Source of the DNA: a virus
Strand: one strand, 5' to 3'
IMG/VR virus record: IMGVR_UViG_3300036770_004143
Coordinates: 62,001-126,000 of that record
Length of the DNA: 64,000 nt
Position numbers and translations under genes: made by a program. The notes under the pieces were generated by a model that was not told the DNA's origin, did not search any database, and saw nothing but the letters and a program-made list of their open reading frames with translations. Position 1 is the stretch's first letter. Every line of letters begins with the position of its first letter. Of this stretch, positions 414-54,153 are shown one piece after another.

Positions 414-1052
414 TTAATTATTATTAATTTGTTTATAAAATTCATTTATAAGATTCTCATCACTCATATATATTTTGTCTTCACCAAAAAACTTAAATGG
501 TATTTCATTTTCCCAAAAAAATATCAATTCGTTTCCTTTTGAATTTTCAATAATTTTATTTGAATCATCATAAACTTCAATAAATGAAAATTTGGGATAA
601 ATACAAACCATATTATTACTAATATCAATAATTTGTTTATGATGAGCATTTCCTCTATATTTATTACCCCATAAAAAAGAAAATTCATTAAATTTTGATG
701 GTACTGCAACATATCCTTTATGTGATATTTTGGGTAATAGTTCTAACAAATCTGTTGGAGTTATTATATCTTCCAAAGTATGAGAACAAATGCTATAATC
801 AAATTTACCATACTTGTTAACGTACTCTAATAATTCAATCCAAGTAGTTTTATCTTGTATGTTAAAGTTAAAAAATTTTACATCATCTTTTTTTATTTCA
901 ACAATATCCGCAACAAATTTACATTCAGGATATGACCAAAATTGTAATGATGCGCCAATATCAATAGTTTTTAAATTATTATCAGATATTATTTTTTTAA
1001 CTTCATCTATTAATTGTTTAACGGATTTGTTGTATTGCCAATGTGTTATCAT
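414..1052 (-). CDS. SAM-dependent methyltransferase-like protein
   Basis: A 212-residue protein with a degenerate class I methyltransferase pattern: LKTIDIGAS (motif I, about residues 27-35), ADIVEIKK (end of strand 2, about 48-55), FDYSICSHTLEDI (motif IV region, about 84-96) and a Pro/Gly strand, KISHKGYVAVPS. The pattern matches methyltransferase domains often found beside glycosyltransferases. Its start lies inside the end of the upstream FkbM-type gene (35-base overlap), so the two are translationally coupled. Substrate cannot be told; a sugar or glycosylated fibre is likely from context. Motif I lacks the usual Gly-rich GxGxG loop, so it could bind SAM poorly or act on a non-methyl chemistry. 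Confidence 0.55.
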   Translation of the reverse strand: MITHWQYNKSVKQLIDEVKKIISDNNLKTIDIGASLQFWSYPECKFVADIVEIKKDDVKFFNFNIQDKTTWIELLEYVNKYGKFDYSICSHTLEDIITPTDLLELLPKISHKGYVAVPSKFNEFSFLWGNKYRGNAHHKQIIDISNNMVCIYPKFSFIEVYDDSNKIIENSKGNELIFFWENEIPFKFFGEDKIYMSDENLINEFYKQINNN

Positions 1053-1659
1053 AATTTTTATTTAAGAAAAATATATCTTGTTGAATTAACTCATATGTTA
1101 TTGGGTGATTTATATTACCAATAAGTTCCACAGGTTTAAACCCCAAATTATCCATATATTCGTAAACAAATTCTTTTGCTGGTGAATTTTTATTATATTC
1201 AACCAAAGAGATTTCCATTAAAATACCCTTAGCTTTTTTGAATATATCTATTCCCCCATTTATAATATCAATCTCAGACCCTTGGACATCAATTTTTATT
1301 AAATCAAATGTTTTATTTAAAAATATATTAGAAATTGTTTTAGTTTGTTTTTTTTTAATAATGATTTGATCATCATCATAAAAAGATGTGTTCTCTCGAT
1401 AAATTGAATTACCTGTACACCTTGGTTCGTTTTTTCTAATGTAAAAATCAACTTGTTTTGCAACGTCACTTAATAAATCTATTGAGTAGTCAACCCCCAA
1501 AGTACGCAATACATCTTCACAAGTTTCATTACCCTCAATCAAATAATAATAAGCATTTGGAAATACAATCATACTTTCTTTATAAAACTGACCAACATTA
1601 GCACCTATATCTAAAATTGATTTAGGTTCAAAATAATCTTTAATTTTTTCTAAACCCAT
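1018..1659 (-). CDS. FkbM-family methyltransferase
   Basis: A 213-residue protein with FkbM-family hallmarks: ILDIGANVGQF near residue 15-25 (SAM-binding motif I), YYLIEGNE (acidic end of strand 2), and FDLIKIDVQGSEIDIINGG at about 118-136, the family's signature D-x-Q-G-x-E. FkbM enzymes O-methylate hydroxyls on polyketides and, very commonly, on sugars in surface glycans. The gene is six bases from the next upstream methyltransferase gene and four genes downstream of two Thr/Pro-rich fibre genes, so methyl capping of fibre sugars is a reasonable inference. The family call is firm; the substrate is a guess. Confidence 0.8.
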   Translation of the reverse strand: MGLEKIKDYFEPKSILDIGANVGQFYKESMIVFPNAYYYLIEGNETCEDVLRTLGVDYSIDLLSDVAKQVDFYIRKNEPRCTGNSIYRENTSFYDDDQIIIKKKQTKTISNIFLNKTFDLIKIDVQGSEIDIINGGIDIFKKAKGILMEISLVEYNKNSPAKEFVYEYMDNLGFKPVELIGNINHPITYELIQQDIFFLNKNYDNTLAIQQIR

Positions 1660-1665
1660 AATGAA

Positions 1666-2220
1666 TTAAAAAATTACTACCCCAGTTCCGGTTAAATGAC
1701 CTAAATGTGAAATATCTATTTTATTAATATCAATAAACTTCCAAAAAGTAATCATTTCTTCATTTAATTTTATGTCATCTAGTAAAAGATAACCTTTGTA
1801 ATTTATTTCCTTTAAATAATTGAAAAAAGTTTTCTCAAATGTTCCATCATGGAAAGTATCAAGCAAAATATATCTTGAACTTAATATTAAATCTAAATAT
1901 TCTGGTTTTAATATGTCATCAATATATACATTAATATTTGTAGGGGTAACTGTTAAAGTTAATTGATTATGTAAATTAAATGTATTAATTTTATTACTTG
2001 AATTTATAGACATAGCTAATGCTGAACACCCTTTAAGTGTTCCTATATCTAACATTTTAATACCATCATTGTTTAATGATATATAAGATAATAATCTATA
2101 ATGTTCTACTGAAGATTTAGACGTAAAATAATCTCTATATTCTAAATCATCAATCTTCAAAGATAATGTTGATAAATCAATTTTATCTAAATCTAAATTT
2201 GTTATTTTTTCAAAATCCAT
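1666..2220 (-). CDS. Class I methyltransferase-like protein (Methyltransf_24/CmcI type)
   Basis: A 184-residue protein with MLDIGTLKGCSALAMS (about residues 56-71) in the position of the SAM-binding loop, a strand YILLDTFHDGTFEKTFFNYL where the D-x-x-H-D motif of the metal-dependent CmcI/macrocin O-methyltransferase group sits, and YLLLDDI near 142. These match the layout of that group, which methylates sugar or macrolide hydroxyls. It starts two bases after the GlcNAc-transferase stop, suggesting one polycistronic mRNA. The N-terminal 50 residues, rich in short Leu/Asp repeats, are not recognised. Enzyme activity is inferred only. Confidence 0.55.
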   Translation of the reverse strand: MDFEKITNLDLDKIDLSTLSLKIDDLEYRDYFTSKSSVEHYRLLSYISLNNDGIKMLDIGTLKGCSALAMSINSSNKINTFNLHNQLTLTVTPTNINVYIDDILKPEYLDLILSSRYILLDTFHDGTFEKTFFNYLKEINYKGYLLLDDIKLNEEMITFWKFIDINKIDISHLGHLTGTGVVIF

Positions 2221-2222
2221 AT

Positions 2223-3473
2223 TTATAACTCACCAGTTAACCTATCACACCAACCTTTAGATTCGCTATGTGGCCAAATAACCCAATATTTTGGTTGCCT
2301 AACCGCATTGAATTCCCTCCATACTTTGCAATATTTGTCGGGATCATTTAACATTCTATTAATCTCATTCTTATCTGCATCTGCTCTATGGATTGTTTCA
2401 TCATTCTCATCATGAAAAGCAACAACCCAAAAATCATAATCTTTTTCTGGAACAGATGAATATGAAACATCAATGCAATGCTTAAAAACACTTGAAAATG
2501 AATTTAACCAATCTTGCTCACTTTCATAATTATATGTATTTGGTGGATAAGTATGATTTATTGTTTCCTCCTGGATTGCCCTCCTTTCAAATAACATACC
2601 AGCATATCTCTCATAATCCCTCAATGTTCTAACCTTTCCAAATCCAAACAAACCATCATGACCTTCTTGTGTTAAACCATCCATTCCAAATAATTTCTTA
2701 TTTATCAAATGGGATTTTCTATTCTTCTCTGTCCATTCCTTATCATCATCCCATTGTTTTGTTCTATTTTTCCTTGTATATTCATGATACACTGTCAATC
2801 TATGTGGATGAAATAAATCATAACCATGTGTATATGCTCTTGCTGCAATGGATATTTCCTCACCATGAAAATAATATTCTGGATTATGTTGAACTTCAAT
2901 AGAGAATTGACCCAATGTGAAACAAAAATGGGCTGAATAGAATCTTGCTGGGACTGGTAAGGTTAAACTTTGCCAATCTTTTATTGCATCTGGCAAAAAG
3001 AAAACAGCGCCCTCTGGAATAAATCTATCAAATAACATTCTCCAAGGTTCTTTTGACCTTGCCTCTGGGTCATTATCTGGATCAAAAGATGTTACATAAC
3101 CTGTTAATAATGGTTTTGGATGACCTGCTTTTTGTAAATCCTTAATCATTTTAATTAAGATTGTATCCCAATTTTTCTCAAATCTCATATGAGAATCAAT
3201 CTGCAAGGTGTATTCCTCTCCATCATATAACTGTTGGGTTAAATTTCTTGCCCAACAAACACCCTCTGTCTCATTATATGGAATGTCAAGTATCTTGAAT
3301 CTCTTATCTTTTCTCCACTTGTCTAATGTGTCAAATTTATCATTTGGATGATATTGTCGTGCAATTGCAATAACCAAATTTTTTGGATATTTGGCATTTG
3401 ATAACATATCTTCTATGGTTGATTCTAATAAATGGTCTCTGTAAGAGGCAATTTGAACGAAAATTTTGCTCAT
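2223..3473 (-). CDS. GT60-type polypeptide GlcNAc-transferase (Skp1/mucin type)
   Basis: A 416-residue protein with the pattern of the 'GlcNAc' glycosyltransferase family (Pfam PF11397, CAZy GT60): IFVQIASYRD at residues 4-13, strings such as FKILDIPYNETEGVCWARN (about 59-77), the metal/sugar-nucleotide motif LQIDSHMRF (90-98, D93-S-H), FSAHFCF-like acceptor region (about 176-184) and YYFHGEEISIAARAYTHGYD (about 200-219). Characterised members are Dictyostelium Gnt1, which puts GlcNAc on hydroxyproline of Skp1, and the Trypanosoma cruzi enzyme that puts alpha-GlcNAc on Thr of Thr/Pro-rich mucins. It lies directly downstream of two phage proteins with long Thr/Pro stalks, so those are its obvious candidate acceptors (inference). 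The family assignment is confident; the acceptor is not shown by sequence. A separate sugar acceptor on a lipid or DNA is the alternative. Confidence 0.85.
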   Translation of the reverse strand: MSKIFVQIASYRDHLLESTIEDMLSNAKYPKNLVIAIARQYHPNDKFDTLDKWRKDKRFKILDIPYNETEGVCWARNLTQQLYDGEEYTLQIDSHMRFEKNWDTILIKMIKDLQKAGHPKPLLTGYVTSFDPDNDPEARSKEPWRMLFDRFIPEGAVFFLPDAIKDWQSLTLPVPARFYSAHFCFTLGQFSIEVQHNPEYYFHGEEISIAARAYTHGYDLFHPHRLTVYHEYTRKNRTKQWDDDKEWTEKNRKSHLINKKLFGMDGLTQEGHDGLFGFGKVRTLRDYERYAGMLFERRAIQEETINHTYPPNTYNYESEQDWLNSFSSVFKHCIDVSYSSVPEKDYDFWVVAFHDENDETIHRADADKNEINRMLNDPDKYCKVWREFNAVRQPKYWVIWPHSESKGWCDRLTGEL

Positions 3474-3524: not shown

Positions 3525-4067
3525 TTAAATTATTAATTGCCAATTTAATGTCTCTTCATTCCAATAATTATTACCATCACTTGGGTATGGTGTTGGTGAA
3601 ACATAATAATTATTCTGATTTAATGACCAACTATCAAATGGTTTCATTAATTCCCAATTTATAATATCTTCATTCCAAACATATCTGTTGTATATTTTAT
3701 ATGGCTCTGGTATGTTTGATGTATCTGGATATGGTATTGGTGAATTCCATAAGCAACTAAATTCCTCTAATATCCATGAAGGAAAAGGTTTTGGAGGGAT
3801 AAAAGCATCCCTAATGCTGTCGTAGTAGTAACCTATTCCAGCATAGTTTTTTCTAAATGCCTTGCTTTGGTCTTGGCTTGGTGTGTTGTTATCAGATTGA
3901 TAATGAACACCACCTCTTGTATTGTAAGAGGTGCGTTTTGCAACACAATTATATAAGTTTGAATAATTTGTTTCAGTATCCAAACCATCTATAATATACG
4001 TCTCATCTGCACCACTTATAACAGATGTGACAAAATTTTCATTATTTAAAAGTGCGTAATGTGCCAT
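3525..4067 (-). CDS. Fibre-partner protein, two-unit version
   Basis: A 180-residue protein starting [11 protein letters not shown]. It has a core KRTSYNTRGGVHYQ..AFRKNYAGIGYYYDSIRDAFIPPKP followed by two copies of a 36-47-residue unit, P-F-x-S-W-x-L ... W-x-x-P-x-P-Y-P ... W-N-E-x-x-x-W-x-L. The core and unit resemble a conserved small structural protein of marine T4-like phages whose function I do not know. Its first base is shared with the last base of the protease-fibre gene upstream, and a one-unit paralog sits in the same position after the other fibre gene, so it probably assembles with, folds or tips the fibre. Cytosolic chaperone versus virion component cannot be decided. Confidence 0.7.
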   Translation of the reverse strand: MAHYALLNNENFVTSVISGADETYIIDGLDTETNYSNLYNCVAKRTSYNTRGGVHYQSDNNTPSQDQSKAFRKNYAGIGYYYDSIRDAFIPPKPFPSWILEEFSCLWNSPIPYPDTSNIPEPYKIYNRYVWNEDIINWELMKPFDSWSLNQNNYYVSPTPYPSDGNNYWNEETLNWQLII

Positions 4068-7000
4068 TATGAAAATGTTACTGTTCCAGAATTTTTAATT
4101 TCTCTAATGTTATAACTACCATCAGTATAACTTACTGCATTTGTTTCAGCACCATTTGATAATGTAATAGTTGCAGAAGATGTTAACCATCTTATTATAA
4201 CAACACCTCTGCCACCTTTACCACCAATTGGGGTCTGCCCACCTGTTGCACCACCACCACCACCACCAGTGTAATCAGTACCAACACCACCAGCAGTATT
4301 AGCATCACCTTGTGAACCATTACCTCCACCTCCTATATCACCAGTTCCAGCAGTTAATCCTCCTCCTGCTCCACCTCCACCACCTCCACCACGAGGTATA
4401 TTATTTCCTGTTATTGCCGAATATAATCCAACACCACCATTCCCAGATTTAGTATTTGGTATACTATCTTGACCTTGTGCACCAGCACCCCCACCTCCAC
4501 CAGTAATTGAATTTACACCAATATAATTACCCCCATCATAACCTTGATTAGGAGAACCAGAACCACCTTTGTTTTCATTAGTTCTATTAGCAGCTCCGCC
4601 ACCAGAACCACCATTTGACCCATTTTCTGAAAAACCACCAGAACCACCACCACCACCAGCAATAGAAGTAATAGTTGCAAAAACACTATTAGTGCCATTT
4701 TGACCTTTTACTGTATAGGTTCCACCATTACCACCACCACCAATAGTAACTGTGTAAGTTGTCCCTTTTGTTAAATATAATGCAGTTTCAGCAGCCGAGC
4801 CACCTCCTGATGTACCAAAAGAAGTTCTATAACCTCCAGCACCACCTCCACCACCACGGTCAGCACCACCTCCACCTCCACCAGCAATAACAAGGTAATC
4901 AACTTGAATAGGGGGAACTGTTGGTGTAACTGTTCTTGTTGGTGTGATTGTTGGTGTAATTGTATTTGTAGGTGTAATTGTATTAGTTGGAGTTATTGTT
5001 GTTGTTGGAGTTATGGTATTTGTAGGCGTTATTGTTTGTGTTGGTGTAATGGTATTTGTAGGTGTAATTGTATTAGTTGGAGTTTCTGTATTGGTTGGTG
5101 TTATGGTTGGAGTTGGCGTTTCTGTGTTTGTTGGTGTTATAGTTTGAGTTGGTGTTTCTGTATTGGTTGGTGTTATAGTTGGAGTTGGTGTTTCACTACT
5201 TGTTGGAGTTTGTGTTGGGGTTTCTGTGTTGGTTGGTGTAATTGTATTAGTTGGAGTAATTGTATTTGTAGGTGTTATAGTTTGTGTTGGAGTTTTACTA
5301 CTTGTTGGAGTTATTGTTGGGGTTTCTGTATTTGTTGGTGTTATAGTTTGAGTTGGTGTTTCTGTATTGGTTGGTGTTATAGTTGGAGTTGGTGTTTCTG
5401 TGTTTGTTGGTGTTATGGTTGGAGTAGATGTTTCACTACTTGTTGGTGTTATAGTTTGAGTTGGTGTTTCTGTATTGGTTGGTGTTATAGTTGGAGTTGG
5501 TGTTTCACTACTTGTTGGAGTTTGTGTTGGGGTTTCTGTGTTGGTTGGTGTAATTGTATTAGTTGGAGTAATTGTATTTGTAGGTGTTATAGTTTGTGTT
5601 GGAGTTTTACTACTTGTTGGAGTTATTGTTGGGGTTTCTGTGTTGGTTGGTGTTGGGGTTTCTGTATTTGTTGGGGTTATGCTTGGAGTTGGTGTTTCTG
5701 TGTTGGTTGGTGTTATAGTTGGAGTTGGTGTTTCACTACTTGTTGGAGTTTGTGTATTGGTTGGAGTTATGGTTGGAGTTGGTGTTTCTGTGTTTGTTGG
5801 TGTAATTGTATTTGTAGGTGTTATAGTTTGTGTTGGAGTTTCTGTGTTGGTTGGAGTAATTGTATTTGTAGGTGTTATAGTGCTAGTTGGTGTTATGCTT
5901 GGAGTTGCATCTTGAGATGCTCCTGGTGTTTTTGTTATAGATGGTGTGACAGTATTAGTTGATGTTATGCTTGGAGTAGGTGTAACTGTGTTGGTTGGAG
6001 TTGGAGTTTGTGTTGGTGTTTCTGTATTTGTTGGTGTTATGGTTGGTGTTGGGGTTTCTGTATTTGTTGGGGTTATGCTTGGAGTTGGAGTTTCACTACT
6101 TGTTGGAGTTTGTGTTGGTGTAACTGTATTTGTTGGAGTTATTGTTGGTGTTATTGTGTTGGTTGGTGTTATAGTTGGGGTTGCATCTTGTGATGCCCCT
6201 GGTGTTTTTGTTAGAGATGGTGTGACTGTATTTGTTGCTGTTATAGTTGGTGTAATTGTGTTTGTTGATGTTGGAGTTATACTACTTGTTGGTGTAATTG
6301 TGTTAGTTGGTGTTATAGTTTGAGTTGGAGTTATACTACTTGTTGGTGTAATTGTGTTTGTTGGTGTTATAGTTTGAGTTGGTGTTATACTACTTGTTGG
6401 TGTAATTGTGTTAGTTGGTGTTATGGTTGGTGTTGGTGTTTTACTAGTTGTTGATGTAACTGTATTGGTTGGTGTTACAATTATTATATTTGTGCTTGTT
6501 GGTGTTGGTGTTAAAGCAGAAATTAACCCTCCTTGCCAAAATATATTATTATCAATGGTTATTGTATTTTCAGAACTTCTACCAACAACCAGATGAGTTT
6601 GTGTTGCTGCGGTATTTGAAAATTCAATGGAATTGCCCAACCAAGGTGAAATATTTATATTATTTGCAATATTATCAATTCTATTTGCCAATCCATGTGT
6701 TACAATATTATTAATACCATATACACCAGCAAACACCAAACCAATTATTTTTCTTGTTCCATTTATATCAGCAATTAATGCTGAACCAGAATCACCAGGT
6801 GCTATTGGATAAATGCAAATGAATCCATTTGGTGTGGTTGCAGCACTTGCAACAAATTCAATACAATTATCAAATTGAATTGTTGTTGGTAATCCTTGTC
6901 TTTCATATGAAATTGATATAACAACATTTGTTGCATATGTTAATAATTTCATATCACCTTCACCTTTTGCACCTGAAGTTCTACCTGAACTAAATAGGTT

Positions 7001-7753
7001 TGGATTTAAATATAATAAATCATCAATTTCTTGTGTTGTTGCAAATTCTAGTGGTTCTGTCCAACCAGTTAAACCCAATTGCAAATATGATTCTGAATAA
7101 CTTATATCTGATTCATTTATTGTGGTTAATGCAACATCACTATTATTATAACCATCAAACCTTAAAGGATAATATTTTTTTATAAAACCAATTGAATTTT
7201 GCAATCCTTTATCAGTTGGTTCATTTGGTTGCGTTGCAACATTATTTAAAATATTTGATAATTGTAATCTTGGATTTCTATCACTTGTTATAAATGCATC
7301 TTCAACTAGAACATGGTTATTGGATACACCAACCAAAGAATTTGTTTCATTATCAATAGCCAAAAACCCTAATGTGCCAACCCATGATCCATTTGATGCT
7401 GTATAATTTGTTAAAGATATTCCACCTTGTAATGGTCTTATTTTATTTCTGTTATTTGGATTTGTTGTTTGCCAAGAATAAAAATCTGATGGACATTCTT
7501 CCAAGAATTTTATTTCACATTCAACAACATCTGTTTTAAATGTGTTGCCAGAAAAATTAATTATGCTTGGTATTTGTTCATTTTCTGGTATATCAGAAAT
7601 ATTTAATTTCTTTTTTACTTTAAAAATTAATGATTTCTCATCTGTAACCAAATTGTTGGTTGTTTTATAACCATAACCAACACCAATAATATTTTCAGAT
7701 GTCTCTTCAAAATATTTTAATGTTAATTCTGATAATAATTTTTGATCAATCAT
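4067..7753 (-). CDS. Tail-fibre-like protein: trypsin-like protease head, Thr/Pro stalk, Gly-rich tip
   Basis: A 1228-residue multidomain protein. Residues about 1-405 form a PA-clan serine protease-like domain: SNNHVL (His147), NNSDVALT (Asp206) and PGDSGSAL (Ser322), with a GRTSG loop at 257-261, so the catalytic triad is complete. Residues about 410-945 are a stalk of Thr-Pro repeats (TPTNT, TPTIT, SSETP). Residues about 948-1165 are a Gly-rich domain opening with [13 protein letters not shown], like Gly-rich tips of phage adhesins (compare T2-type gp38 polyglycine sandwiches). A short beta-rich C-terminus follows. No signal peptide is seen, as expected for a virion protein. The protease may cleave host surface proteins or mature the fibre itself. 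The partner gene starts on its last base. Fibre role is inferred from architecture. Confidence 0.75.
4915..6512 (-). repeat. Thr/Pro-coding degenerate tandem repeat (stalk of protease fibre)
   Basis: About 1.6 kb of degenerate 12-18-base units (on the plus strand forms of GTTGGTGTTATAGTT and GTTTCTGTATTGGTT) that encode the Thr/Pro stalk. Many longer blocks recur almost unchanged, for example the stretch around 5170-5330 again around 5480-5640, so the tract is prone to length change by recombination. The repeat keeps frame throughout, and the opposite strand shows long spurious open frames. Confidence 0.9.
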
Positions 7754-7764
7754 TTAAATTTTAT

Positions 7765-8157
7765 TTATGTATTATAAATATTCCATTGTTTATTTTCCTC
7801 ATCCCAATAATATTGGTTGCCATCATTTGGATAAGGTATAGGTGGTTGCCATAAGCAACTAAATTCATCTAATGTCCAACTTGGGTATGGTTTTGGTGGG
7901 ATGAAAGCGTCCCTTATACTATCGTAATAATAACCTATTCCAGCATAGTTTTTTCTAAATGCCTTGCTTTGGTCAAGGCTTGGTGTATTGTTGTCGGATT
8001 GGTAGTGAATACCACCATGTGTGTTGTAGGATGTGCGTTTATGAACTATACCTAATTCATTAAACCAACCAATTTCACCATCCCAATCATCTTCATGACC
8101 AGCACTCTTCATATCTATTACAAAATTATTTTCATCTAAAACTGCATAATACGCCAT
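7765..8157 (-). CDS. Fibre-partner protein, one-unit version
   Basis: A 130-residue paralog of the partner protein at 3525-4067. I chose the start MAYYAVLDENN at 8157 because it aligns with [11 protein letters not shown] of the paralog; an upstream in-frame ATG at 8178 would add seven residues and overlap the fibre stop. It shares the KRTSYNT.GG.HYQ and RKNYAGIGYYYDSIRDAFIPPKP core but carries only one P-x-P-S-W-x-L ... W unit. DNA identity with the paralog is very high across the core (exact over 40 bases around 7940). It follows the LamG-like fibre gene by 14 bases, so each fibre gene has its own partner gene. Confidence 0.7.
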   Translation of the reverse strand: MAYYAVLDENNFVIDMKSAGHEDDWDGEIGWFNELGIVHKRTSYNTHGGIHYQSDNNTPSLDQSKAFRKNYAGIGYYYDSIRDAFIPPKPYPSWTLDEFSCLWQPPIPYPNDGNQYYWDEENKQWNIYNT

Positions 8158-8171
8158 AATGTTATATTTTA

Positions 8172-17101: not shown

Positions 17102-17487
17102 GAATTTGGGTAAATGGTTGCTTTGACGTGTTGCACATTGGACATATATCATTATTAGAGTATGCAAAAACACTTGGATATGTCCTAGTTGGTGTTGATT
17201 CTGATGAAAGGGTCAAACAATTGAAAGGCAATGATAGACCTGTAAATTCTGTTGATGATAGGATTAAGATGTTAAAATCTTTGAAATTTGTGGATGATGT
17301 TTGTATGTTTGATACAGATACAGAGTTAAATGACATCTTATACCTATATCAACCAGATGTTATTGTGATTGGTGATGATTATAAATCAAAGAATATAATT
17401 GGTTCAGAACACGCAAAAAGAATTGATTTTTTTGAAAAAAAGAATGATATTAGTACAACTAAAATTTTAAATCATAAAAACAAATAA
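17098..17487 (+). CDS. Cytidylyltransferase-fold sugar-phosphate nucleotidyltransferase (RfaE-C/TagD type)
   Basis: A 129-residue HxGH-family nucleotidyltransferase: NGCFDVLHIGHISLLE (residues 6-21, HIGH at 13-16), GVDSDERVKQLKG, RPVNSVDDRIKMLKSLKFVDDV, and the C-terminal ISTTKIL that closes the active site. It looks like the adenylyltransferase half of HldE/RfaE (heptose-1-phosphate) or glycerol-phosphate cytidylyltransferase. It would make a nucleotide-activated sugar or polyol for the neighbouring glycosyltransferases. Substrate choice between the two is not decidable by eye; the DRPVN..DRI pattern favours heptose. Confidence 0.75.
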   Translation: MRIWVNGCFDVLHIGHISLLEYAKTLGYVLVGVDSDERVKQLKGNDRPVNSVDDRIKMLKSLKFVDDVCMFDTDTELNDILYLYQPDVIVIGDDYKSKNIIGSEHAKRIDFFEKKNDISTTKILNHKNK

Positions 17488-17488
17488 A

Positions 17489-18103
17489 ATGGAAAATAGA
17501 GAAAATTATAGCCAGGAAGAGCTTGAGAACCTAAAAAATTATCTTGATGGTATAGATGGTGATGAAACTATTGATGATACAGATATGGAAGCATTTATTC
17601 AAAATATGTTTGGTATGTCAATGGATGAATATTCAAATGCTCTTGAAGATGCAATGAAATCAAAAACTCTTGGTTATAAGAAATTATCACCTGATGCTGT
17701 TGAACCCAAGTATAATTTTGAGAAAGATTCTGGATTTGATTTACATTCAGTTGAGGATATTGATTTGGGTGGTATGTCAAGGGCTATGGTTAGCACAGGA
17801 ATAGCATTTAATATTCCTGATGGGTATGAGATACAAATTAGACCCAAAAGTGGATTAGCAATCAATTATGGACTTACAGTACTAAACACACCCTCCACAA
17901 TTGATGGTGGGTATGTTGGTGAGGTTAAGGTGATATTATTTAATACATCAAGAGAAACTTATCAAGTTAAAAAGGGAATGAAAATTGCCCAAGCAGTATT
18001 ATGTCCAGTTCAGCAAGGCAAATATGTAAATCTTGAAAATATAGATGAATTACCTGATACTGATAGAGGTAGTGATGGATTTGGATCAACTGGATTAGTT
18101 TAA
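17489..18103 (+). CDS. dut: dUTPase with acidic N-terminal extension
   Basis: A 204-residue protein. Residues from about 66 hold the five trimeric dUTPase motifs: DSGFDLHS, IRPKSGLA, LNTPSTIDGGYVGEV, and the C-terminal RGSDGFGSTG that closes over the nucleotide. The third motif reads IDGGY where IDxDY is usual, but the first Asp, the catalytic base, is kept. The first 65 residues (rich in Glu/Asp, SQEELENLKNYLDGIDGDE) are an extension absent from standard enzymes of about 150 residues. The enzyme hydrolyses dUTP to dUMP, keeping uracil out of DNA and supplying dUMP for thymidylate synthesis, which fits the ThyX-like gene at the right edge. Confidence 0.9.
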   Translation: MENRENYSQEELENLKNYLDGIDGDETIDDTDMEAFIQNMFGMSMDEYSNALEDAMKSKTLGYKKLSPDAVEPKYNFEKDSGFDLHSVEDIDLGGMSRAMVSTGIAFNIPDGYEIQIRPKSGLAINYGLTVLNTPSTIDGGYVGEVKVILFNTSRETYQVKKGMKIAQAVLCPVQQGKYVNLENIDELPDTDRGSDGFGSTGLV

Positions 18104-18116
18104 TATAAAAAATAAT

Positions 18117-19628
18117 ATGATAACAATAGTATATTCAACACATAAAGATATAAACTACAATCAAAAATTCAAAAAACATTTACTAGATAAAGTTGGATTA
18201 AAAGATGTGCAAGTTTTAGAATACCTTAATAATAATGAGTTTTCACTTGCACATCTATATAACAAAGGAATTAGTGAAGCCATATATGACGTTGTTGTTT
18301 GTTTACATAACGATGTTATTTTATCTAAGGATTGGGGTAAAAAATTATTAGATGATTTTAAAAATAATCCTGAGTATGGTATTATAGGAAAAGCTGGATC
18401 TACTCATTTTCCAGAATCAGGAATATATTGGGAGAAGATGCACATGACAATGGTTGGGCAAGTTTACCACCACCCACAAGATAAAGATAAATTTTTGAGT
18501 ATGTATTCACCTAAACTAAATTACCTTATACCTGTTGTGACCATTGATGGTCTTTTTATTGCTTTTGATAAAAATAAAATAAGCCATAAGTTTGATGAAA
18601 CTATTGGGAAGTTCCATTTTTATGATCATTCTTTTTGTCTTCCAAATTATTTTGATGGGGTTAAATTGGGCGTAACTAGTTCATTTGAGATTACGCATGA
18701 ATCTGTTGGTCAACCAAATGAAGAGTTTTTTGAATCAAAAGATGTTTTCTTAAAAAAATTTGGTGAAAAGTTACCCATAACTATTTTACCTGAAAAACCA
18801 CATGTTAATCCAGTTGCTGCATATAATAATAAAAACAATAATAAAGTTGCTGTTATTATACCAACTAAGGGTAATATTGATGTTTTATTTGAATGTATAG
18901 AATCCTTTTATCAAAACTGTAATCCTAATTACTTTAAAATTTTTGTTGCTGACACTGGTTCAGAAGTTGATGAAAAAAATAAAATGAAAGAAAAGTTTTC
19001 ATCATATTCTAATATAGAATTAATTGAATATGATTATTACAATTTTTCTAAAATTAATAACAATGTTGTACAAAATTATGTAGATGGTAGTTTTAATTTC
19101 ATTTTATTCTCAAATAATGATATCAAGTTATTATCCAATGTTATTGATAGTATGTTAATGACGTTTAATGAAAAACCAAATGTTGGCACTGTTGGGGCTA
19201 GACTTTATTATCCAGATAATACAATTCAACATGATGGTGTTTTTGTGTTGTATAATACAAAAAATAATTTCTTAGGTGTTTCACATTTTGGGCTTAAAAC
19301 ACATTACAATTTCATAAACACCAAAAGAATTGTATTAGGGAATACTGGCGCGCTACTCATGATAAGTAAAAAAACTTTTGAGAAAGTTGGTATGTTTAAT
19401 GAGGAATATATAAGTTGCTTTGAAGATGTTGAATTAAATTTACAATGCATTTTACATGGTATGCAAAACTACTTGGATTCAAATGCTGTTGCATATCACT
19501 ATGAGTCCAAAACTAGGGGTGAAGATTCTGATAATTTAAAAAAACTAAACATTGACTATTCAGAAAGATTATTACCTTACATAAGTAATAATATGAATAA
19601 ATTAAAACCATATTTTAATATTAAATAA
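18117..19628 (+). CDS. Two-domain GT2-type glycosyltransferase
   Basis: A 503-residue protein made of two GT-A domains. The N-terminal domain (about 1-225) begins ITIVYSTHKD and has VVVCLHNDVILSKDWG near residue 60-75, as in the Glyco_tranf_2_5 group. The C-terminal domain (about 240-500) begins KVAVIIPTKGNIDVLFECIESF, has FNFILFSNNDIKLLS (D-x-D equivalent N-D), GNTGALLMISKKTFEKVGMFNEEY and FEDVELNLQCILHG, the canonical GT2 acceptor/base region, ending near a YHYESKTRGED motif typical of GT2 rhamnosyl/galactofuranosyl enzymes. The presence of UDP-galactopyranose mutase two genes downstream makes a galactofuranosyl donor conceivable. Confidence 0.8.
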   Translation: MITIVYSTHKDINYNQKFKKHLLDKVGLKDVQVLEYLNNNEFSLAHLYNKGISEAIYDVVVCLHNDVILSKDWGKKLLDDFKNNPEYGIIGKAGSTHFPESGIYWEKMHMTMVGQVYHHPQDKDKFLSMYSPKLNYLIPVVTIDGLFIAFDKNKISHKFDETIGKFHFYDHSFCLPNYFDGVKLGVTSSFEITHESVGQPNEEFFESKDVFLKKFGEKLPITILPEKPHVNPVAAYNNKNNNKVAVIIPTKGNIDVLFECIESFYQNCNPNYFKIFVADTGSEVDEKNKMKEKFSSYSNIELIEYDYYNFSKINNNVVQNYVDGSFNFILFSNNDIKLLSNVIDSMLMTFNEKPNVGTVGARLYYPDNTIQHDGVFVLYNTKNNFLGVSHFGLKTHYNFINTKRIVLGNTGALLMISKKTFEKVGMFNEEYISCFEDVELNLQCILHGMQNYLDSNAVAYHYESKTRGEDSDNLKKLNIDYSERLLPYISNNMNKLKPYFNIK

Positions 19629-19636
19629 TTTAAATA

Positions 19637-20392
19637 ATGAATAAAGTAATTTTAGCAACAGGTTCAGATTACAAATATCTGCAAAAAATTCAACCATATT
19701 TATCATCATTAGATAAGAACTCCAATTTTGATGAGAATGTTTTAGTATTTATAGGTGATGAGGATTTTCATTTTGAAAACAAATCTATTTCTTTAACAAA
19801 GTTACCAAAAACATCAATATTATCACTAAATACAATTAGTTGTGTGCAACATGGTGAATTTGCGTTTGCCCCTTATTTTGATAAATTTGAAGATTCTGAT
19901 ATAATTTTTTTCACTGATGGTGATATGTTCTTACAACGAAGTATTACCACAGAAGAAAAAACAATGTACTCAAATTTTAATGATGGAGATGTTTATATTG
20001 GGTATAATTCATCAAAAGATGATACTCTTCAAAAAGAATCTCCAAGGATAGGGTACAAGAATATTATGTATAAAGAATTTGAAAGAGACTGGAATTCAAT
20101 AAAAATTTACAACACCGGAGTGGTGGGTATGAATAAAAAATCATGGAAAAAGTTGGCAAAAGATTATATAGAACTTTATCCTTTAGTTGATACAATGTTT
20201 ACACACTATGCAAAACAACAATGGTTGATTTCATTCCTTATAGGAACAGATAATTATTTTAACATAATAGAAATGGGATATGATATTCATAACCACACAC
20301 ATTATGCTAGTCCAATAGGAACAACACAAGACGCTAATCGTAATGTTTTTTTTGATAATAAACTTGTATTGTTCAAACATAAATGGGATTAA
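19637..20392 (+). CDS. GT-A glycosyltransferase (GT8-like)
   Basis: A 251-residue protein. It opens KVILATGSDYKYLQ, has IIFFTDGDMFLQRS near residues 93-106 (D-x-D for metal and nucleotide sugar), YNTGVVGMNKKSWKKL (about 158-173) and ends LFKHKWD; the final H-K-W resembles the H-x-P-W closing motif of GT8 enzymes. Acceptor unknown. It sits between a two-domain GT2 enzyme and UDP-galactopyranose mutase, with 4-9-base gaps. Confidence 0.65.
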   Translation: MNKVILATGSDYKYLQKIQPYLSSLDKNSNFDENVLVFIGDEDFHFENKSISLTKLPKTSILSLNTISCVQHGEFAFAPYFDKFEDSDIIFFTDGDMFLQRSITTEEKTMYSNFNDGDVYIGYNSSKDDTLQKESPRIGYKNIMYKEFERDWNSIKIYNTGVVGMNKKSWKKLAKDYIELYPLVDTMFTHYAKQQWLISFLIGTDNYFNIIEMGYDIHNHTHYASPIGTTQDANRNVFFDNKLVLFKHKWD

Positions 20393-20395
20393 AAT

Positions 20396-21496
20396 ATGTA
20401 TGATTATGTAATTGTTGGTGCTGGGTTTTTTGGTTCTATTTGTGCGCATGAATTGACTAAAAAGGGTAAAAAAGTTTTAGTACTTGAAAAAAGAAACCAT
20501 TTAGGGGGTAATTGCTATACAGATAAATGGGATAATATAAATATCCATTATTATGGTCCTCACATTTTTCACACATCAAATGAAAAAGTTTGGCGCTGGA
20601 TTAATAAATTTGCAGAATTCAAACCTTATAAACATAATGTTGTGGCAAATTATAAAGATAATGTTTTCTCTATGCCATTCAATATGTGGACTTTCTCCAA
20701 ACTTTGGAATATAAAAAGCCCTGATGAAGCAAAAAAAATAATTAAAGAACAAAGTTTAGGAATAGAATACCCTAAAAATTTAGAAGAACAAGCCATAAAA
20801 CTTGTTGGTACTGATATATATGAAATGTTCATAAAGGGTTATACGCAAAAGCAATGGATGAAAGATCCAAAAGATTTACCTAAAGAAATTATCAAAAGAA
20901 TACCTGTTAGATTTACTTATGATAATTCATATTATTTTGACAAATATGAAGCAATACCTATTGGAGGGTACACCCAAATTTTTGAAAAATTATTAGTAGG
21001 AATTGAAGTTAGACTTAACACTGATTATTTTACAGAAAAAGAATATTACAATTCAATAGGGGAGAAAGTTATTTTTACTGGACCTATTGATAAATTTTTT
21101 GATTATAGTTTAGGTAAACTAGAATACAAAACTACTAAATTTTTGCATAAGAGATTTGAGACTAATAACTACCAAGGTGCTGCCCAGATAAATTATACTG
21201 AATTAGACACTCCACAAGTTAGAACTTTGGAACATAAACATTTTGAAAAATCTGAATCTAATGTGACTTGGGTTACTTGGGAATATCCAACTCCATATAT
21301 TGTGGATGAAACAGAGCCTTACTATCCTGTAAATGATGACATCAATAATAGAATGTATCAAGAATATAAAGAGATGGCTAATAATTACCCAAATATTTAT
21401 TTTGGAGGGAGATTAGGTGATTATAAATATTATGATATGGATAAGGTTATAGACTTAGCATTAAATTTTGTTGAGAATTTGACTACTAAATCATAA
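20396..21496 (+). CDS. glf: UDP-galactopyranose mutase
   Basis: A 366-residue flavoenzyme, the usual length. It has the FAD-binding YVIVGAGFFGSICAHEL (residues 4-20), VLVLEKRNHLGGNCYTD, HYYGPHIFHTSNEKVW (about 52-67), MPFNMWTFSKLW, GYTQKQWMKDP, RIPVRFTYDNSYYFDKYEAIPIGGYTQ and a C-terminal GRLGDYKYYDMDKVI. The enzyme turns UDP-galactopyranose into UDP-galactofuranose in the cytoplasm. In a phage this supplies an unusual furanose donor for one of the glycosyltransferases around it, which points to galactofuranose in a phage or altered host glycan. Confidence 0.95.
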   Translation: MYDYVIVGAGFFGSICAHELTKKGKKVLVLEKRNHLGGNCYTDKWDNINIHYYGPHIFHTSNEKVWRWINKFAEFKPYKHNVVANYKDNVFSMPFNMWTFSKLWNIKSPDEAKKIIKEQSLGIEYPKNLEEQAIKLVGTDIYEMFIKGYTQKQWMKDPKDLPKEIIKRIPVRFTYDNSYYFDKYEAIPIGGYTQIFEKLLVGIEVRLNTDYFTEKEYYNSIGEKVIFTGPIDKFFDYSLGKLEYKTTKFLHKRFETNNYQGAAQINYTELDTPQVRTLEHKHFEKSESNVTWVTWEYPTPYIVDETEPYYPVNDDINNRMYQEYKEMANNYPNIYFGGRLGDYKYYDMDKVIDLALNFVENLTTKS

Positions 21497-21530
21497 TACC
21501 TATTATTTATTATTAAATAAAAACAACTTA

Positions 21531-22262
21531 ATGACGAGAAGAAGATTTGTGAAAAAAGAAGATGAGGTTGAGTTAGCTCCCCAATCAAGAAAAAGCCAAA
21601 TTTGTAGTTTGCTTAAAAAGAAGACAAAAGAGAAATTTCTAAACGACAATCAAGCAATTTATTATGATAAATTGTTAAATCACCAAATAACAATTTGTGT
21701 TGGTCCGGCTGGAACAGGCAAAAGTTATATGTCAATGAAGGCAGCAGTTGATTTACTTGCAGACCCAAACAATACATATGAGAAATTGGTAATTGTTAAA
21801 CCAGCTGTTGAAGCAGAAGAAAAGTTAGGAGCATTACCAGGAACAGTAAATGAGAAGATGGATCCATATATTTACCCATCTTTTTATCTTTTAAACAAAA
21901 TCATTGGCAAGAATATCCGTGAAAAATTAATGGATATGGAGGTTATTGAGGTTATGGCTCTTGCTTATATGAGGGGGTTAAATATTGATAATACTATATT
22001 GGTTTTGGAGGAAGCACAGAACACTACACCAAACCAAATGAAATTAGTATTAACAAGGATTGGTTTTAATACTAAATTCTTTATATCTGGTGATTTGGAG
22101 CAAACTGACAGGTATAAAGACAAAAGGGGAACTGGATTATATGATGCTATGTTAAGATTGCAAGATGTTGATGATATTGCACATCATGAATTTGGTACTC
22201 AAGATATTGTAAGAAATCCCCTAATATCAAAAATATTAAAAAAATATGAAGATTGGAATTGA
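21531..22262 (+). CDS. phoH: PhoH-family ATPase
   Basis: A 243-residue PhoH-like protein: ICVGPAGTGKSYMSMKAAV (Walker A at 58-65), LVIVKPAVEAEEKLGALPG, EVMALAYMRGLNIDNTILVLEEAQNTT (Walker B with EEAQ), MKLVLTRIGFNTKFFISGDLEQTD. PhoH proteins are ATPases with RNA-helicase-like relatives and are widespread in large phages, with no agreed role. An N-terminal basic stretch (RRRFVKKEDE) precedes the domain. The operon continues with the HAD-like gene 13 bases downstream. Confidence 0.92.
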   Translation: MTRRRFVKKEDEVELAPQSRKSQICSLLKKKTKEKFLNDNQAIYYDKLLNHQITICVGPAGTGKSYMSMKAAVDLLADPNNTYEKLVIVKPAVEAEEKLGALPGTVNEKMDPYIYPSFYLLNKIIGKNIREKLMDMEVIEVMALAYMRGLNIDNTILVLEEAQNTTPNQMKLVLTRIGFNTKFFISGDLEQTDRYKDKRGTGLYDAMLRLQDVDDIAHHEFGTQDIVRNPLISKILKKYEDWN

Positions 22263-22275
22263 TTTGACAAAAAAT

Positions 22276-22863
22276 ATGAGAATTGGTATTGATTTGAATG
22301 GGGTTTTAAGGGATACCCTTGGTAAAATAGAGCAAGTGTATGATAAGTTCTATGTCTCAAATGAGGAGGGGGGGAGTGATTTTAAATATGAAGTAAATTA
22401 TCCCATTGATTCCTTAAACCTTATGAATCACTTCAAATTTGAGAATAGTGAAGATTTGTATAATTTCTTATATGTTGAACATCCTATGGAAATATTTGGT
22501 CATGCAGCATCCGTTGAATATACAGGGATGAATGATTTAAATGATTTCTATCTTGATATGAGAGATAATTATAAAATTATTATTATTTCAGATGAGATTG
22601 GTAAATCCAAACCTGCCACATTATTTTTTTTATCAAAGTTTTCTTGTTTGATTGAAAACATTATGTTTTATAGTGAACAGACAAAAAATAATATGCTTGG
22701 GTCAATAGATGTTTTACTTACAGCAAATCCAGACTTATTATTAAAAGAAGTTAATGGCTTGAAGGTTATTAAATATGAACAAGAATATAACAAAAACATT
22801 AAAGCTAAATACAGCATAAACAAACTAAAAGAGTTAAAAGATAAAATTTTAGAAATATGTTAA
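22276..22863 (+). CDS. HAD-like hydrolase
   Basis: A 195-residue protein with IGIDLNGVLRDTLGKI at the N-terminus, the HAD motif I position (Asp nucleophile then Asn-Gly rather than D-x-D), IIIISDEIGKSKPATLFFLSKF (motif II Ser, motif III Lys), and DVLLTANPDLLLK near residue 150. Short nucleotidases and sugar phosphatases of phages look like this. I chose the ATG at 22276; the ATG at 22246 would overlap phoH and gives an N-terminus (MKIGIDLT) that looks like a copy of MRIGIDLN, a curious 18-base near-repeat. The missing second Asp of motif I weakens the phosphatase claim. Confidence 0.55.
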   Translation: MRIGIDLNGVLRDTLGKIEQVYDKFYVSNEEGGSDFKYEVNYPIDSLNLMNHFKFENSEDLYNFLYVEHPMEIFGHAASVEYTGMNDLNDFYLDMRDNYKIIIISDEIGKSKPATLFFLSKFSCLIENIMFYSEQTKNNMLGSIDVLLTANPDLLLKEVNGLKVIKYEQEYNKNIKAKYSINKLKELKDKILEIC

Positions 22864-23135
22864 AAATCTTAGGAGAACATTATTATGTTGATTTAGATGT
22901 TGTTGAAAAGTATGTTGATATGACAGAAGTTGCACCAATAGAAACAACAGGTACAACAGATACAAAAATAAATATCATTAAATATGAACTTGTAAAACTA
23001 ATGTTAGATGTCATTTTAACAGAAAGTGATGATATTGATGAAAAACTTGGTTTAAGTTCAGCTAGTGACTTGAGTTTACCATTTAAATTGGCTTTTAATA
23101 CATTATTAAACAAAAAGATAATAAACAAATATTAA
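22857..23135 (+). CDS. Small protein of unknown function
   Basis: A 92-residue acidic protein with no family I recognise. It has a polar N-terminus with a TTGTTDT linker and two helices (INIIKYELVKLMLDVIL, FKLAFNTLLNKKI). Overlaps the HAD-like gene by seven bases and is one base from the next gene, so it is a member of the same operon. Confidence 0.6.
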   Translation: MLKILGEHYYVDLDVVEKYVDMTEVAPIETTGTTDTKINIIKYELVKLMLDVILTESDDIDEKLGLSSASDLSLPFKLAFNTLLNKKIINKY

Positions 23136-23136
23136 C

Positions 23137-24183
23137 ATGAGTGATATCAAAACAAAAATTGAAAATTCCTTAAACCTATTAAAAGACAAAAAATCAAGAA
23201 TTTATTTTGTTGCCCAAGATACAAAAGGAAATGCTAGGGCTTCTATAAAATACATTTATGACCTTGCTTTGGCTTTGAAGGAGAATGGATTTAACCCCAT
23301 CATCTTACATGAAAAAAAAGATTACACAGGTGTAGCATCTTGGCTTGATGAAAGTTATATGACAAATCTTCCCCACCGTTCAATTGAGGGGGAAAATTTA
23401 GAAATTAGCCCAGAGGATTTTATTGTTCTTCCTGAAATTTATGGTTTCATTATGGAACAGATTAAGGATTTACCTTGCGGTAAGATTGTATTAACCCAAT
23501 CATATTCATATGTGTTGGATACATTGCAACCTGGTCAAAGTTGGCCATCACTAGGCTTCCTAAAATGTATCACAACTTCTGAAAAACAGAAAGAGCAGAT
23601 TGAATCTTATATGAAAAAAATGTCATATGATATTATCACACCTTACATAGCAGAAGTTTTTGATAAACCAAAATTACCCCCAATGCCAATTGTTGCAGTT
23701 CATACAAGGGATCAGACAGATACCATTAACATTGTTAAGCAATTCTACTTAAAGTATCCCCAATTTAGGTGGTTTACTTTTAGGGATATGAGGGGTCTTA
23801 ACCAAGTAGAGTTTGCCAACTCTTTAAAGAGTTGTTTTCTTAGCGTTTGGATTGATGATATTAGTGGTTTTGGAACATATCCATTGGAATCAATGGCTTG
23901 TGGGATTCCAGTTATTGGAAAAATACCTGATTTAATTCCAGAGTGGATGAATGAGAAAAATGGAATATGGGTACAGGACAAGTTAAAGATGGTTGATTAT
24001 ATTGCAGAGTTCATCCAGAATTGGCTTGAGGATAGCATTACCCCTGATTTATATGAGGAACTTGAGAAAACAGGGAATGAATACAAGGATAAAGAAAAAT
24101 TCACAACAAATGTTGTCAAGTGTTTTACAGGCTATTTTGATAATAGAATAAATGCATTTCAAGAACAATTAAACAAATTATAA
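23137..24183 (+). CDS. GT4-type glycosyltransferase
   Basis: A 348-residue GT-B-like protein. N-terminal half: SRIYFVAQDTKGNARASIKYIYDLALALKENG (about residues 20-51), a donor-less Rossmann domain; C-terminal half: PIVAVHTRDQTDTINIVKQFYLKYPQFRWFTF, then SVWIDDISGFGTYPLESMACGIPVIGK (about 248-274), the canonical GT4 E-x7-E donor region. Second GT4 enzyme in the window, distinct from 15172. Followed by a GT2 gene one base away. Acceptor unknown. Confidence 0.75.
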   Translation: MSDIKTKIENSLNLLKDKKSRIYFVAQDTKGNARASIKYIYDLALALKENGFNPIILHEKKDYTGVASWLDESYMTNLPHRSIEGENLEISPEDFIVLPEIYGFIMEQIKDLPCGKIVLTQSYSYVLDTLQPGQSWPSLGFLKCITTSEKQKEQIESYMKKMSYDIITPYIAEVFDKPKLPPMPIVAVHTRDQTDTINIVKQFYLKYPQFRWFTFRDMRGLNQVEFANSLKSCFLSVWIDDISGFGTYPLESMACGIPVIGKIPDLIPEWMNEKNGIWVQDKLKMVDYIAEFIQNWLEDSITPDLYEELEKTGNEYKDKEKFTTNVVKCFTGYFDNRINAFQEQLNKL

Positions 24184-24184
24184 A

Positions 24185-24991
24185 ATGAGTAATAAATTAT
24201 CATTATCTGTTATACTACCAATAAAGTCATCAAAAACAAAAGATTTTAATGCATTTTTTGACAAGGCAATTGCATCATTAGAAAAACAAGAAACTGATTT
24301 TGATGAATTGGTTATTGTCCACACAAAGGAAGATTCTCTTGTTAAATTCTTAAATGAATATGACTTTAAGAATTTGAATGTAAAGAAATTTGAATGGACT
24401 TCTGATCCAAATTATTGTTCACAGATTAATTATGGTGTTGAAAAAGCATCATCAGAATGGGTTTCATTATTTGAATTTGATGATGAATATTCCAACATCT
24501 GGTTTAAGAACTTTAGAAAATATGCTGAAGTGTATCCAGATTATGCAGCATTTTTACCAGTTGTAGTTGATGTGGACGCACAGGAGGTTTTTGCTGGGTT
24601 TACAAATGAGGCAACTTTTGCTGCAAATTTCACCCAAGAAATGGGAATATTGACCAATGACATTTTACATGATTATCAAAATTTTCAGACATCTGGAATT
24701 ATTTTGAAAAAGGATATATTTATTAGCACAGGGGGATTCAAACCATCCGTTAAATTAACTTTTGGCTATGAGTTCTTACTAAGGCTTACCTATAATTCAA
24801 CACCAGTAATGACAATACCTAGATTGGGATACAAACATACCAATCTTAGAGAAGGATCTATATTTTGGAATTATAAATTTGCCAAAGATAAAATTACTGA
24901 AGATGAAGTTAAGTTTTGGCTTCAAACTGCTAAAAAAGAATATTTCTTTACAACTGATAGGGAAATAAAATATGAAACTGAAAACTCTTAA
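24185..24991 (+). CDS. GT2-type glycosyltransferase
   Basis: A 268-residue GT-A protein: LSVILPIKSSKTKDFNAFFDKAIASLEKQ (strand 1 and helix), INYGVEKASSEWVSLFEFDDEY (about 78-99, with the D-D-E metal motif), FLPVVVDVDAQ and a C-terminal TSGIILKKDIFISTGGFKPSVKLTFGYEFLLRL typical of GT2 acceptor regions. Its stop overlaps the ATG of the sigma-factor gene by one base. Acceptor unknown. Confidence 0.75.
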   Translation: MSNKLSLSVILPIKSSKTKDFNAFFDKAIASLEKQETDFDELVIVHTKEDSLVKFLNEYDFKNLNVKKFEWTSDPNYCSQINYGVEKASSEWVSLFEFDDEYSNIWFKNFRKYAEVYPDYAAFLPVVVDVDAQEVFAGFTNEATFAANFTQEMGILTNDILHDYQNFQTSGIILKKDIFISTGGFKPSVKLTFGYEFLLRLTYNSTPVMTIPRLGYKHTNLREGSIFWNYKFAKDKITEDEVKFWLQTAKKEYFFTTDREIKYETENS

Positions 24992-31366: not shown

Positions 31367-32070
31367 TGGAAAAAGAAAAACTAAAAAGAATATTTAATTT
31401 CCTTGAAGAGAAAGGAGAACACATTATAGCATTACCAGTTAAGATTAAATTGGCTATGCCAATAGCAAAAGAAGATTTAAATGTTAAAGGTGATTTGAGT
31501 TTAAGACACGCAAATATAACCTCATTGCCAGAAGGTTTGAAAGTTGGTGGTGATTTATATTTAACTAATTCAAACATAACCTCATTACCAGAAGGTTTAA
31601 AAGTTGATGGTGATTTGATGTTAACCTTTTCAAAAATAATCTCATTACCAGATGATTTACAAGTTGGTGGTTCTTTGAATTTATCATATGCGGATATAAA
31701 CTCACTACCAAAAGGTTTGAAAGTTGGGGGTTCTTTGCATATAGAGGACACAAAAATAACCTCATTGCCAGAAGGATTGAAAGTTAATGGTAATTTGGGT
31801 TTAACTAATTCAAAGATAACCTCATTGCCAGAAGGATTGAAAGTTGGTGGTTATTTGACTTTATCACATACAAATGTAACCTCATTGCCAAAAGGATTGG
31901 AAGTTGGTAGAAATTTGTATTTAAGACATACAAATATAACCTCATTGCCAAAAGGTTTGAAAGTTTATGGAAAATTACTTATAGAAAATGCCCTATTAAG
32001 AAAATACACAGATGAAGAATTAAGAGAAATGATTAGACCTGGATTTATAGATGGAGAAATATTTAGATAA
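31366..32070 (+). CDS. LPEGLKVGG-repeat protein, cluster 1 member 1
   Basis: A 234-residue member of an 11-gene paralog family here. Common plan: N-terminal helix KEKLKRIFNFLEEKGEH, a short segment ending in DLNVKGDLSL, then 20-residue repeats (S-L-P-E-G-L-K-V-G-G-x-L-x-L-x-x-x-x-I-T), then an exposed C-terminus YTDEELREMIRPGFIDG. This one has eight repeats. The unit has the 20-residue period and LP-x-x-L core of a leucine-rich-repeat-like solenoid and resembles repeats known from other phages. The stop overlaps the next ATG (TAATG), so the six genes are translationally coupled. Function unknown; solenoids of this kind bind other proteins. Confidence 0.8.
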   Translation: MEKEKLKRIFNFLEEKGEHIIALPVKIKLAMPIAKEDLNVKGDLSLRHANITSLPEGLKVGGDLYLTNSNITSLPEGLKVDGDLMLTFSKIISLPDDLQVGGSLNLSYADINSLPKGLKVGGSLHIEDTKITSLPEGLKVNGNLGLTNSKITSLPEGLKVGGYLTLSHTNVTSLPKGLEVGRNLYLRHTNITSLPKGLKVYGKLLIENALLRKYTDEELREMIRPGFIDGEIFR

Positions 32071-33642: not shown

Positions 33643-33646
33643 GATA

Positions 33647-40723: not shown

Positions 40724-40732
40724 TATAAATAT
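40724..40732 (-). promoter_or_regulatory. Late-promoter-like motif ATATTTATA
   Basis: Perfect minus-strand copy, 20 bases before the ATG of the scaffold gene (40703). Confidence 0.6.
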
Positions 40733-41590: not shown

Positions 41591-41593
41591 TAT

Positions 41594-43563: not shown

Positions 43564-43572
43564 TATAAATAT
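43564..43572 (-). promoter_or_regulatory. Late-promoter-like motif ATATTTATA
   Basis: Perfect minus-strand copy, 14 bases before the ATG of the prohead protease gene. Confidence 0.6.
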
Positions 43573-44802: not shown

Positions 44803-44811
44803 TATAAATAT
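44803..44811 (-). promoter_or_regulatory. Late-promoter-like motif ATATTTATA
   Basis: Perfect minus-strand copy, 14 bases before the ATG at 44788. Confidence 0.6.
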
Positions 44812-54144: not shown

Positions 54145-54153
54145 TATAAATAT
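54145..54153 (-). promoter_or_regulatory. Late-promoter-like motif ATATTTATA
   Basis: Perfect minus-strand copy, 10 bases before the lipoprotein start. Confidence 0.6.

Follow-up and report, generated by a model that had tools for sequence, protein, structure and literature searches.

A predicted NAL1-type protease among the tail fibres of a large T4-like phage, and a peptide that may dock it

What would a trypsin-like protease be doing at the head of a phage fibre? Enzymatic tail fibres and tail spikes are well known, and include polysaccharide depolymerases and endosialidases. The question is raised here by a stretch of 64,000 nucleotides, referred to below as the window, that spans positions 62001–126000 of the IMG/VR virus record IMGVR_UViG_3300036770_004143 (270,075 bases), the genome of a large T4-like bacterial virus. 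In the original prediction, an open reading frame (ORF) of this window was read from its letters as a protease with a complete triad (His147, Asp206 and Ser322, in the motifs NNHVL, SDVAL and GDSGSAL) fused to a Thr/Pro stalk and a Gly-rich tip. The ORF does lie exactly at 4067–7753 on the minus strand, the triad falls at these residues, and the same ORF occurs in a second, separate IMG/VR contig of 103 kb, with zero nucleotide differences across 3687 bases. The reading offered in this report, to which we would give close to an even chance, is that the ORF encodes an active NAL1-type endopeptidase of the tail-fibre apparatus that would be docked on a C-terminal peptide of the fibre encoded upstream; it is built on sequence comparison and predicted structure.

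The protease head and its relatives

Viral homologues provide the best view of the head. A set of 36 non-identical viral heads, 39–61% identical to that of the window, was assembled, and the GDSGS block and His147 were kept in all 36, while Asp206 was kept in 35 and was replaced by Glu in one group. This conservation of the triad indicates selection for catalysis, and the enzyme is predicted to be active. Single-sequence searches of PDB, NCBIfam and Pfam either missed the family or placed it below the cut-off (for the window head alone, Pfam Trypsin scored 19.3 bits against a cut-off of 20.6), and profiles were required. A profile of the 36 heads matched the chains of rice NARROW LEAF 1 (NAL1; 7y77) with an E-value of 0.0011, its NNHV and GDSGS motifs aligning to the His and Ser motifs of NAL1. 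The N-terminal NAL1 domain (PF25608, NAL1_N) reached 11.4 bits in the window against a cut-off of 27, and was matched in 6–8 homologues, the best with an E-value of 2.2e-4.

Structure prediction led to the same family. With the 36 homologues as input, AlphaFold2 gave a model of the head with a mean predicted local distance difference test score (pLDDT) of 90.5 and a predicted template modelling score of 0.78. Foldseek searches of PDB with two models of the head each ranked rice NAL1 first, as the top 33–34 matches, nearly full-length and with a best E-value of 1.3e-14. VIA-align placed approximately residues 92–380 on NAL1 8pmi_A with a Z-score of 20.8. The same program aligned 189 of 191 residues of a Streptomyces trypsin-like protease (2sfa) at a Z-score of 19.9 and a root-mean-square deviation of 2.7 Å, and the PA-clan fold of the original prediction is thereby borne out. 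Global template modelling scores of the second model against NAL1 were low (~0.42), with high root-mean-square deviations, perhaps because its two subdomains are oriented differently. Altogether, the head is a predicted PA-clan serine endopeptidase of the NAL1 type. Cys87 and Cys313 of the head are conserved in more than 90% of homologues, and a disulfide or other structural link is possible.

NAL1 proteins (rice 7y77 and 8pmg; maize ZmNAL1a) share with the viral head a NAL1_N-like region followed by a PA-clan protease with aligned His and GDSGS motifs, and provide the best structural match across almost the whole head; however, identity is only ~13–16%, the viral head lies among tail fibres, often with a stalk and tip, and no plant-type substrate is known for it. 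That NAL1-type enzymes can be active is clear from purified ZmNAL1a, which degrades REL2 (PMC12915138). The phage family PHROG 20754, annotated as “protease”, matched all 12 homologues tested (best 2e-23) and matched the window head at 2.2e-18 over residues 20–162 only, but its library entry describes no fibre fusion, tag partner or function. A protein of Virus NIOZ-UU157 (A0A7S9XDX3 in BFVD, 449 aa) has 31% identity and a matching predicted fold, but is uncharacterised. No close relative was found in the GTDB genomes scanned, and the sole deposited phage found to carry a relative was LR756508, a 484-kb phage in which a NAL1-like protein of 335 aa stands alone, away from recognisable fibre genes.

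The remainder of the ORF was also as predicted. Thr makes up 45% of the stalk residues and Pro 19%. The tip, which is 37% Gly, matched Pfam Gly_rich_2 with an E-value of 4.8e-20 (73 bits against a cut-off of 24.3); it is on the stalk, the tip and the gene context that assignment of the ORF to the tail fibres rests. Fusion and a place in a tail-fibre cluster were confirmed, but the head was standalone (~407–429 aa) in roughly half of the 36 distinct loci and, in the remainder, was extended by stalks and tips of several unrelated types. On a maximum-likelihood tree, the fused or standalone label required 7 changes, at least 4 of them forced by supported branches. The window's nearest relatives (61% identical) are standalone heads, and the fusion to stalk and tip is thus one of several lineage-specific events and not a general rule; a Gly-rich tip on the protease head was seen in the window phage only.

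What remains constant across the loci is the place among tail genes and a partner peptide. A stalked fibre lies upstream in the relatives' loci, and additional fibres lie downstream in many of them; in another clade, neck- and sheath-type genes adjoin the protease. Twelve relatives that are close in the capsid protein show no protease in the fragments of 42–134 kb that represent them, and in the five where the site between the upstream fibre gene (gene A) and a glycosyltransferase gene could be read, other stalked fibres were found there. Two loci deserve separate mention. One, L054 (8001–15840), carries four NAL1-like protease genes in tandem, the second of which encodes an active-looking head together with a degenerate second copy that lacks the His and GDSG motifs. 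In another, L042 (1231–2094), a tip domain has similarity to a portion of the fibre that precedes the protease in L072 (4377–7928). This tip domain, possibly a metal-binding enzyme, contains an E-H-x3-H-like stretch, EVLEHVLHTIH.

A peptide at the end of the upstream gene

In 22 of the 36 loci, the gene directly upstream of the protease ends in the pattern [TSV][ILV][FY][IVML][HFY][ITYF]P, 0–6 residues from its stop codon, with the consensus N-T-[IL]-F-[IV]-H-I-P-N. Elsewhere in 229,020 residues of ORFs, this tag was matched once, in an antisense frame. Its codons are varied (seven are used in the Thr/Ser column and two for the invariant Pro), and this synonymous variety, together with the pattern of amino-acid substitutions, shows that the tag is constrained as protein. 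An origin at the DNA level, with the promoter-like motif TATTTATA embedded in the upstream gene's end, had been weighed because that motif is enriched ahead of gene starts; it was rejected on the same two grounds.

The tag is not confined to one kind of fibre. Tagged upstream proteins fall into at least five groups: a single large one, and several for which no homology to it was detected. The large group was linked by SEG-masked BLAST, and unrelated proteins may have been drawn into it through their stalk repeats. When a weight matrix was built from the main group and applied to five held-out tags, three outscored every one of the 970 background C-termini and a fourth outscored all except 1; the fifth was weak, as 15 of the background scored equally high or higher. 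The same scan, unasked, picked out a tag on the third of the four tandem proteases of L054 (13246–14562), directly before the fourth, and a looser pattern was matched close to the C-terminal end of the product of a virion-type gene that immediately follows the protease gene in L065 and L066. No tag was found in the fibre loci of protease-less relatives, homologues of gene A included (51,643 residues). That the upstream fibres have the tag purely through common descent was rejected, since groups without detected homology carry it and homologues of gene A without the protease lack it.

Scans of all of IMG/VR with two patterns, F[VIM]HIPN-stop and ends of the FxFIPNL type, yielded 35 matches. All eight that end a long ORF directly precede the protease (for L213, whose upstream ORF runs off the locus, the length was taken from L028), and the remaining 27 fall in frames no longer than 87 residues. 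The eight come from contigs that were already known, some of them near-identical, and thus represent an absence of exceptions and not new cases. The tag, then, pairs exclusively with the protease gene.

Gene A of the window carries the tag in another position. The peptide RTIFLFFPN, the sole match in the 270-kb record, lies inside gene A and is followed there by a stalk, a Gly-rich tip and then a gene of PHROG 7759, and the protease head is trailed by a corresponding series of stalk, Gly-rich tip and PHROG 7759 gene. Along the record (G000), PHROG 7759 genes trail Gly_rich_2-type tips both at 65.5–71 kb and at its far end (266963–269830), which suggests that tip and gene form a mobile cassette with its own assembly protein. 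The simplest account of the separation of tag and protease gene would be that the cassette, with stalk, was appended to both genes, in gene A after the tag, and these additions would make the fibre longer, branched or two-segmented.

A possible role for the protease on the virion

By the proposed mechanism, the C-terminal peptide would serve as a docking site that holds the protease at the end of the upstream gene's fibre, and virions would carry the enzyme where a fibre ends or where two segments meet. As the head lies at the N-terminus, its place would be the joint between two fibre segments in the fused forms, and the fibre end in the standalone forms. The enzyme could then cut host surface proteins at attachment, a step held with less certainty, as an endopeptidase counterpart of the polysaccharide-degrading tail spikes; like these it would be an enzyme borne by the attachment apparatus, but a predicted endopeptidase in place of a glycan-active enzyme. 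The protease is the N-terminal part of its protein. Provided that the fibre points the same way as those of other phages, the enzyme would lie where its own stalk begins on the virion side, at an end or a joint, and not at the host-facing tip. Overall, the original interpretation is partly supported.

A precedent for such docking exists in T2-type phages, whose gp37 fibre bears at its end a separate protein, gp38 (PMC12892980). Both systems would place a separate protein at a fibre end and both include glycine-rich regions, but gp38 has no protease domain and serves to bind the receptor, and in the window the glycine-rich part is a separable Gly_rich_2 cassette. No gp38 family appeared among Pfam matches at E-values up to 1, nor in the homologues, and gp38 on gp37 would be an analogous arrangement and not a homologous one.

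Several observations weigh against a docked fibre protease. In the window itself, the tag is internal to gene A and not C-terminal, and a 137-aa gene stands between gene A and the protease gene. On the fused fibre, moreover, an N-terminal protease is far from the C-terminal tip. The strict tag is absent from the directly upstream gene in 14 of the 36 loci, which include the clade of L055, L056, L060, L062 and L072; two of the 14 have no upstream gene in the available sequence, one has NTIYVHTL and two have degenerate versions. Finally, the tag pattern was derived from the observed sequences themselves, and its IMG/VR-wide scan recovered only contigs that were already known.

The clearest competing explanation, unlikely though a serious one, is that of a maturation protease that, during tail assembly, would cleave either itself or the upstream fibre, the latter in or close to the tag, with the tag as its recognition site and possibly no action on the host at all. 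Processing of phage structural proteins is common, and both gene adjacency and the exclusive pairing of tag and protease would suit such an enzyme. The internal tag of gene A leaves room for it as well, as a cut at that point would detach the tip or expose the tag as a C-terminus. Yet the genes of most relatives already encode the tag as the C-terminus, where a cut would take off only a few residues, and the phage encodes a separate T4-type prohead protease (PHROG 207) at 42848–43549. Repeated fusion to stalks and tips is also more in keeping with a part retained in the structure than with a processing enzyme that acts only transiently, and this retention favours the cutting of host surfaces over fibre maturation.

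A structural connector, in which the protease fold would hold the fibre's C-terminal strand in its substrate groove and catalysis would be incidental or product-inhibited, is improbable. As a C-terminal peptide that is extended and hydrophobic, the tag would suit such grooves, and both the Glu that replaces the catalytic Asp in one group and the degenerate second copy in L054 count in favour of a connector; the invariant His, Ser and oxyanion block of 36 divergent homologues would be unexpected, however, if catalysis were dispensable. More improbable still is an effector or counter-defence protease acting inside the host cell, its place in the tail cluster being due to chance or to injection. 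The lone 335-aa relative in LR756508 would suit this idea, but the conserved place in fibre clusters, the fusions to stalks and tips and the tag partner all speak against it, and a PADLOC search for a link to defence systems returned no family matches. A docking-type peptide favours a fibre-mounted or fibre-processing enzyme over intracellular digestion of defence proteins, which had been among the roles first proposed.

A wider proposal is tentative and rather doubtful: that NAL1-type endopeptidases held on fibres by a portable C-terminal docking peptide, interchangeable among fibre types and duplicated in tandem in one lineage (L054), cut host surface proteins at attachment and form an undescribed class of proteolytic tail fibres. 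Enzymatic fibres and NAL1 proteases are each known, and their combination with a docking-type peptide appears to be new. In the full-text literature searched, a scope outside of which most subscription papers fall, no trypsin-like or NAL1-like protease on a phage fibre was reported. One review (PMC10783043) mentions a trypsin-like serine protease that alphaproteobacterial phages of one cluster have in common, and the passage concerned assigns it no role in a fibre.

A protease on a fibre would add protein layers to the barriers that phages open, alongside the sugar-cutting fibre enzymes, and could account for how phages attach to hosts that bear a coat of surface proteins. If the tag binds the head, it would be a natural plug for joining a module to a fibre end, and it makes the assembly of multi-part fibres in large T4-like phages testable. 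NAL1 enzymes, which have been studied in plants, would gain a second biological setting.

Gene neighbourhood and other features of the window

The features of the protease ORF and its surroundings are collected in the table. On the minus strand, the order is gene A, a PHROG 7759 gene, the protease gene, a second PHROG 7759 gene and a glycosyltransferase gene of the N-acetylglucosamine (GlcNAc) type.

Table 1. Positions in the window of the protease ORF, its parts and the neighbouring genes
Feature	Position	Strand	Details
Whole protease ORF	4067..7753	minus	1228 aa, ATG start; NAL1-like protease, Thr/Pro stalk and Gly-rich tip
Protease head	6524..7753	minus	Residues 1–410; part common to distinct viral homologues; model pLDDT 90.5
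NAL1_N-like N-terminal subdomain	7514..7684	minus	Approximately residues 24–80; profile match to rice NAL1 chains from residue 24
PA-clan protease fold (predicted)	6635..7438	minus	Residues 106–373; VIA-align, Foldseek
Catalytic His147 codon (predicted)	7313..7315	minus	Motif NNHVL
Catalytic Asp206 codon (predicted)	7136..7138	minus	Motif SDVAL
Catalytic Ser322 codon (predicted)	6788..6790	minus	Motif GDSGSAL
Thr/Pro-rich stalk	4940..6523	minus	Residues 411–938 (528 residues); PHROG 15511/2295
Glycine-rich tip	4187..4933	minus	Residues 941–1189; PF21722 Gly_rich_2
Internal tag-like peptide of gene A	10305..10331	minus	RTIFLFFPN, residues 716–724
Gene A	8172..12476	minus	Fibre/adhesin upstream of protease; head, internal tag, stalk, Gly-rich tip; proposed docking partner
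PHROG 7759 gene after gene A's Gly-rich tip	7765..8178	minus	Putative tip-specific assembly protein
PHROG 7759 gene after the protease gene's Gly-rich tip	3525..4067	minus	59% identical to the other copy
GlcNAc-type glycosyltransferase	2223..3473	minus	Beside the fibre cluster
Promoter-like motif TATTTATA	7773..7780	minus	27 bases ahead of the protease start codon

The best matches of the major capsid protein include Microcystis phage Mel-JY01, Flavobacterium phage immuto and Rhodothermus phage RM378. In the window, sugar-related genes were recognised by eye at 15172–24991 and 414–3473, among them several glycosyltransferase-like proteins, methyltransferase-like proteins, a UDP-galactopyranose mutase-like protein (20396–21496) and the GlcNAc-type glycosyltransferase that adjoins the fibre cluster, possibly for glycosylation of virion proteins.

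The motif TATTTATA was seen on the sense strand 17–33 bases ahead of 10 of 50 start codons, its sites in the window including 7773–7780, 40724–40731, 43564–43571, 44803–44810 and 54145–54152. For its complement, TATAAATA, 35 occurrences were counted over the two strands, where 15.3 would be expected. In T4, late promoters have TATAAATA in the sense direction, and TATTTATA may be the late promoter of this lineage.

Many small paralogues that start with MEKEKLKRIFEFLEEKEGH or similar lie at 31366–34806, 41126–42846 and 58065–58535; they have repeated LPxGLKVGGDLxL units that resemble leucine-rich or beta-solenoid repeats. A phage-encoded transfer-messenger RNA occurs at 58765–59186, and its predicted tag is GNTLETLATLGLVREDAVVAA.

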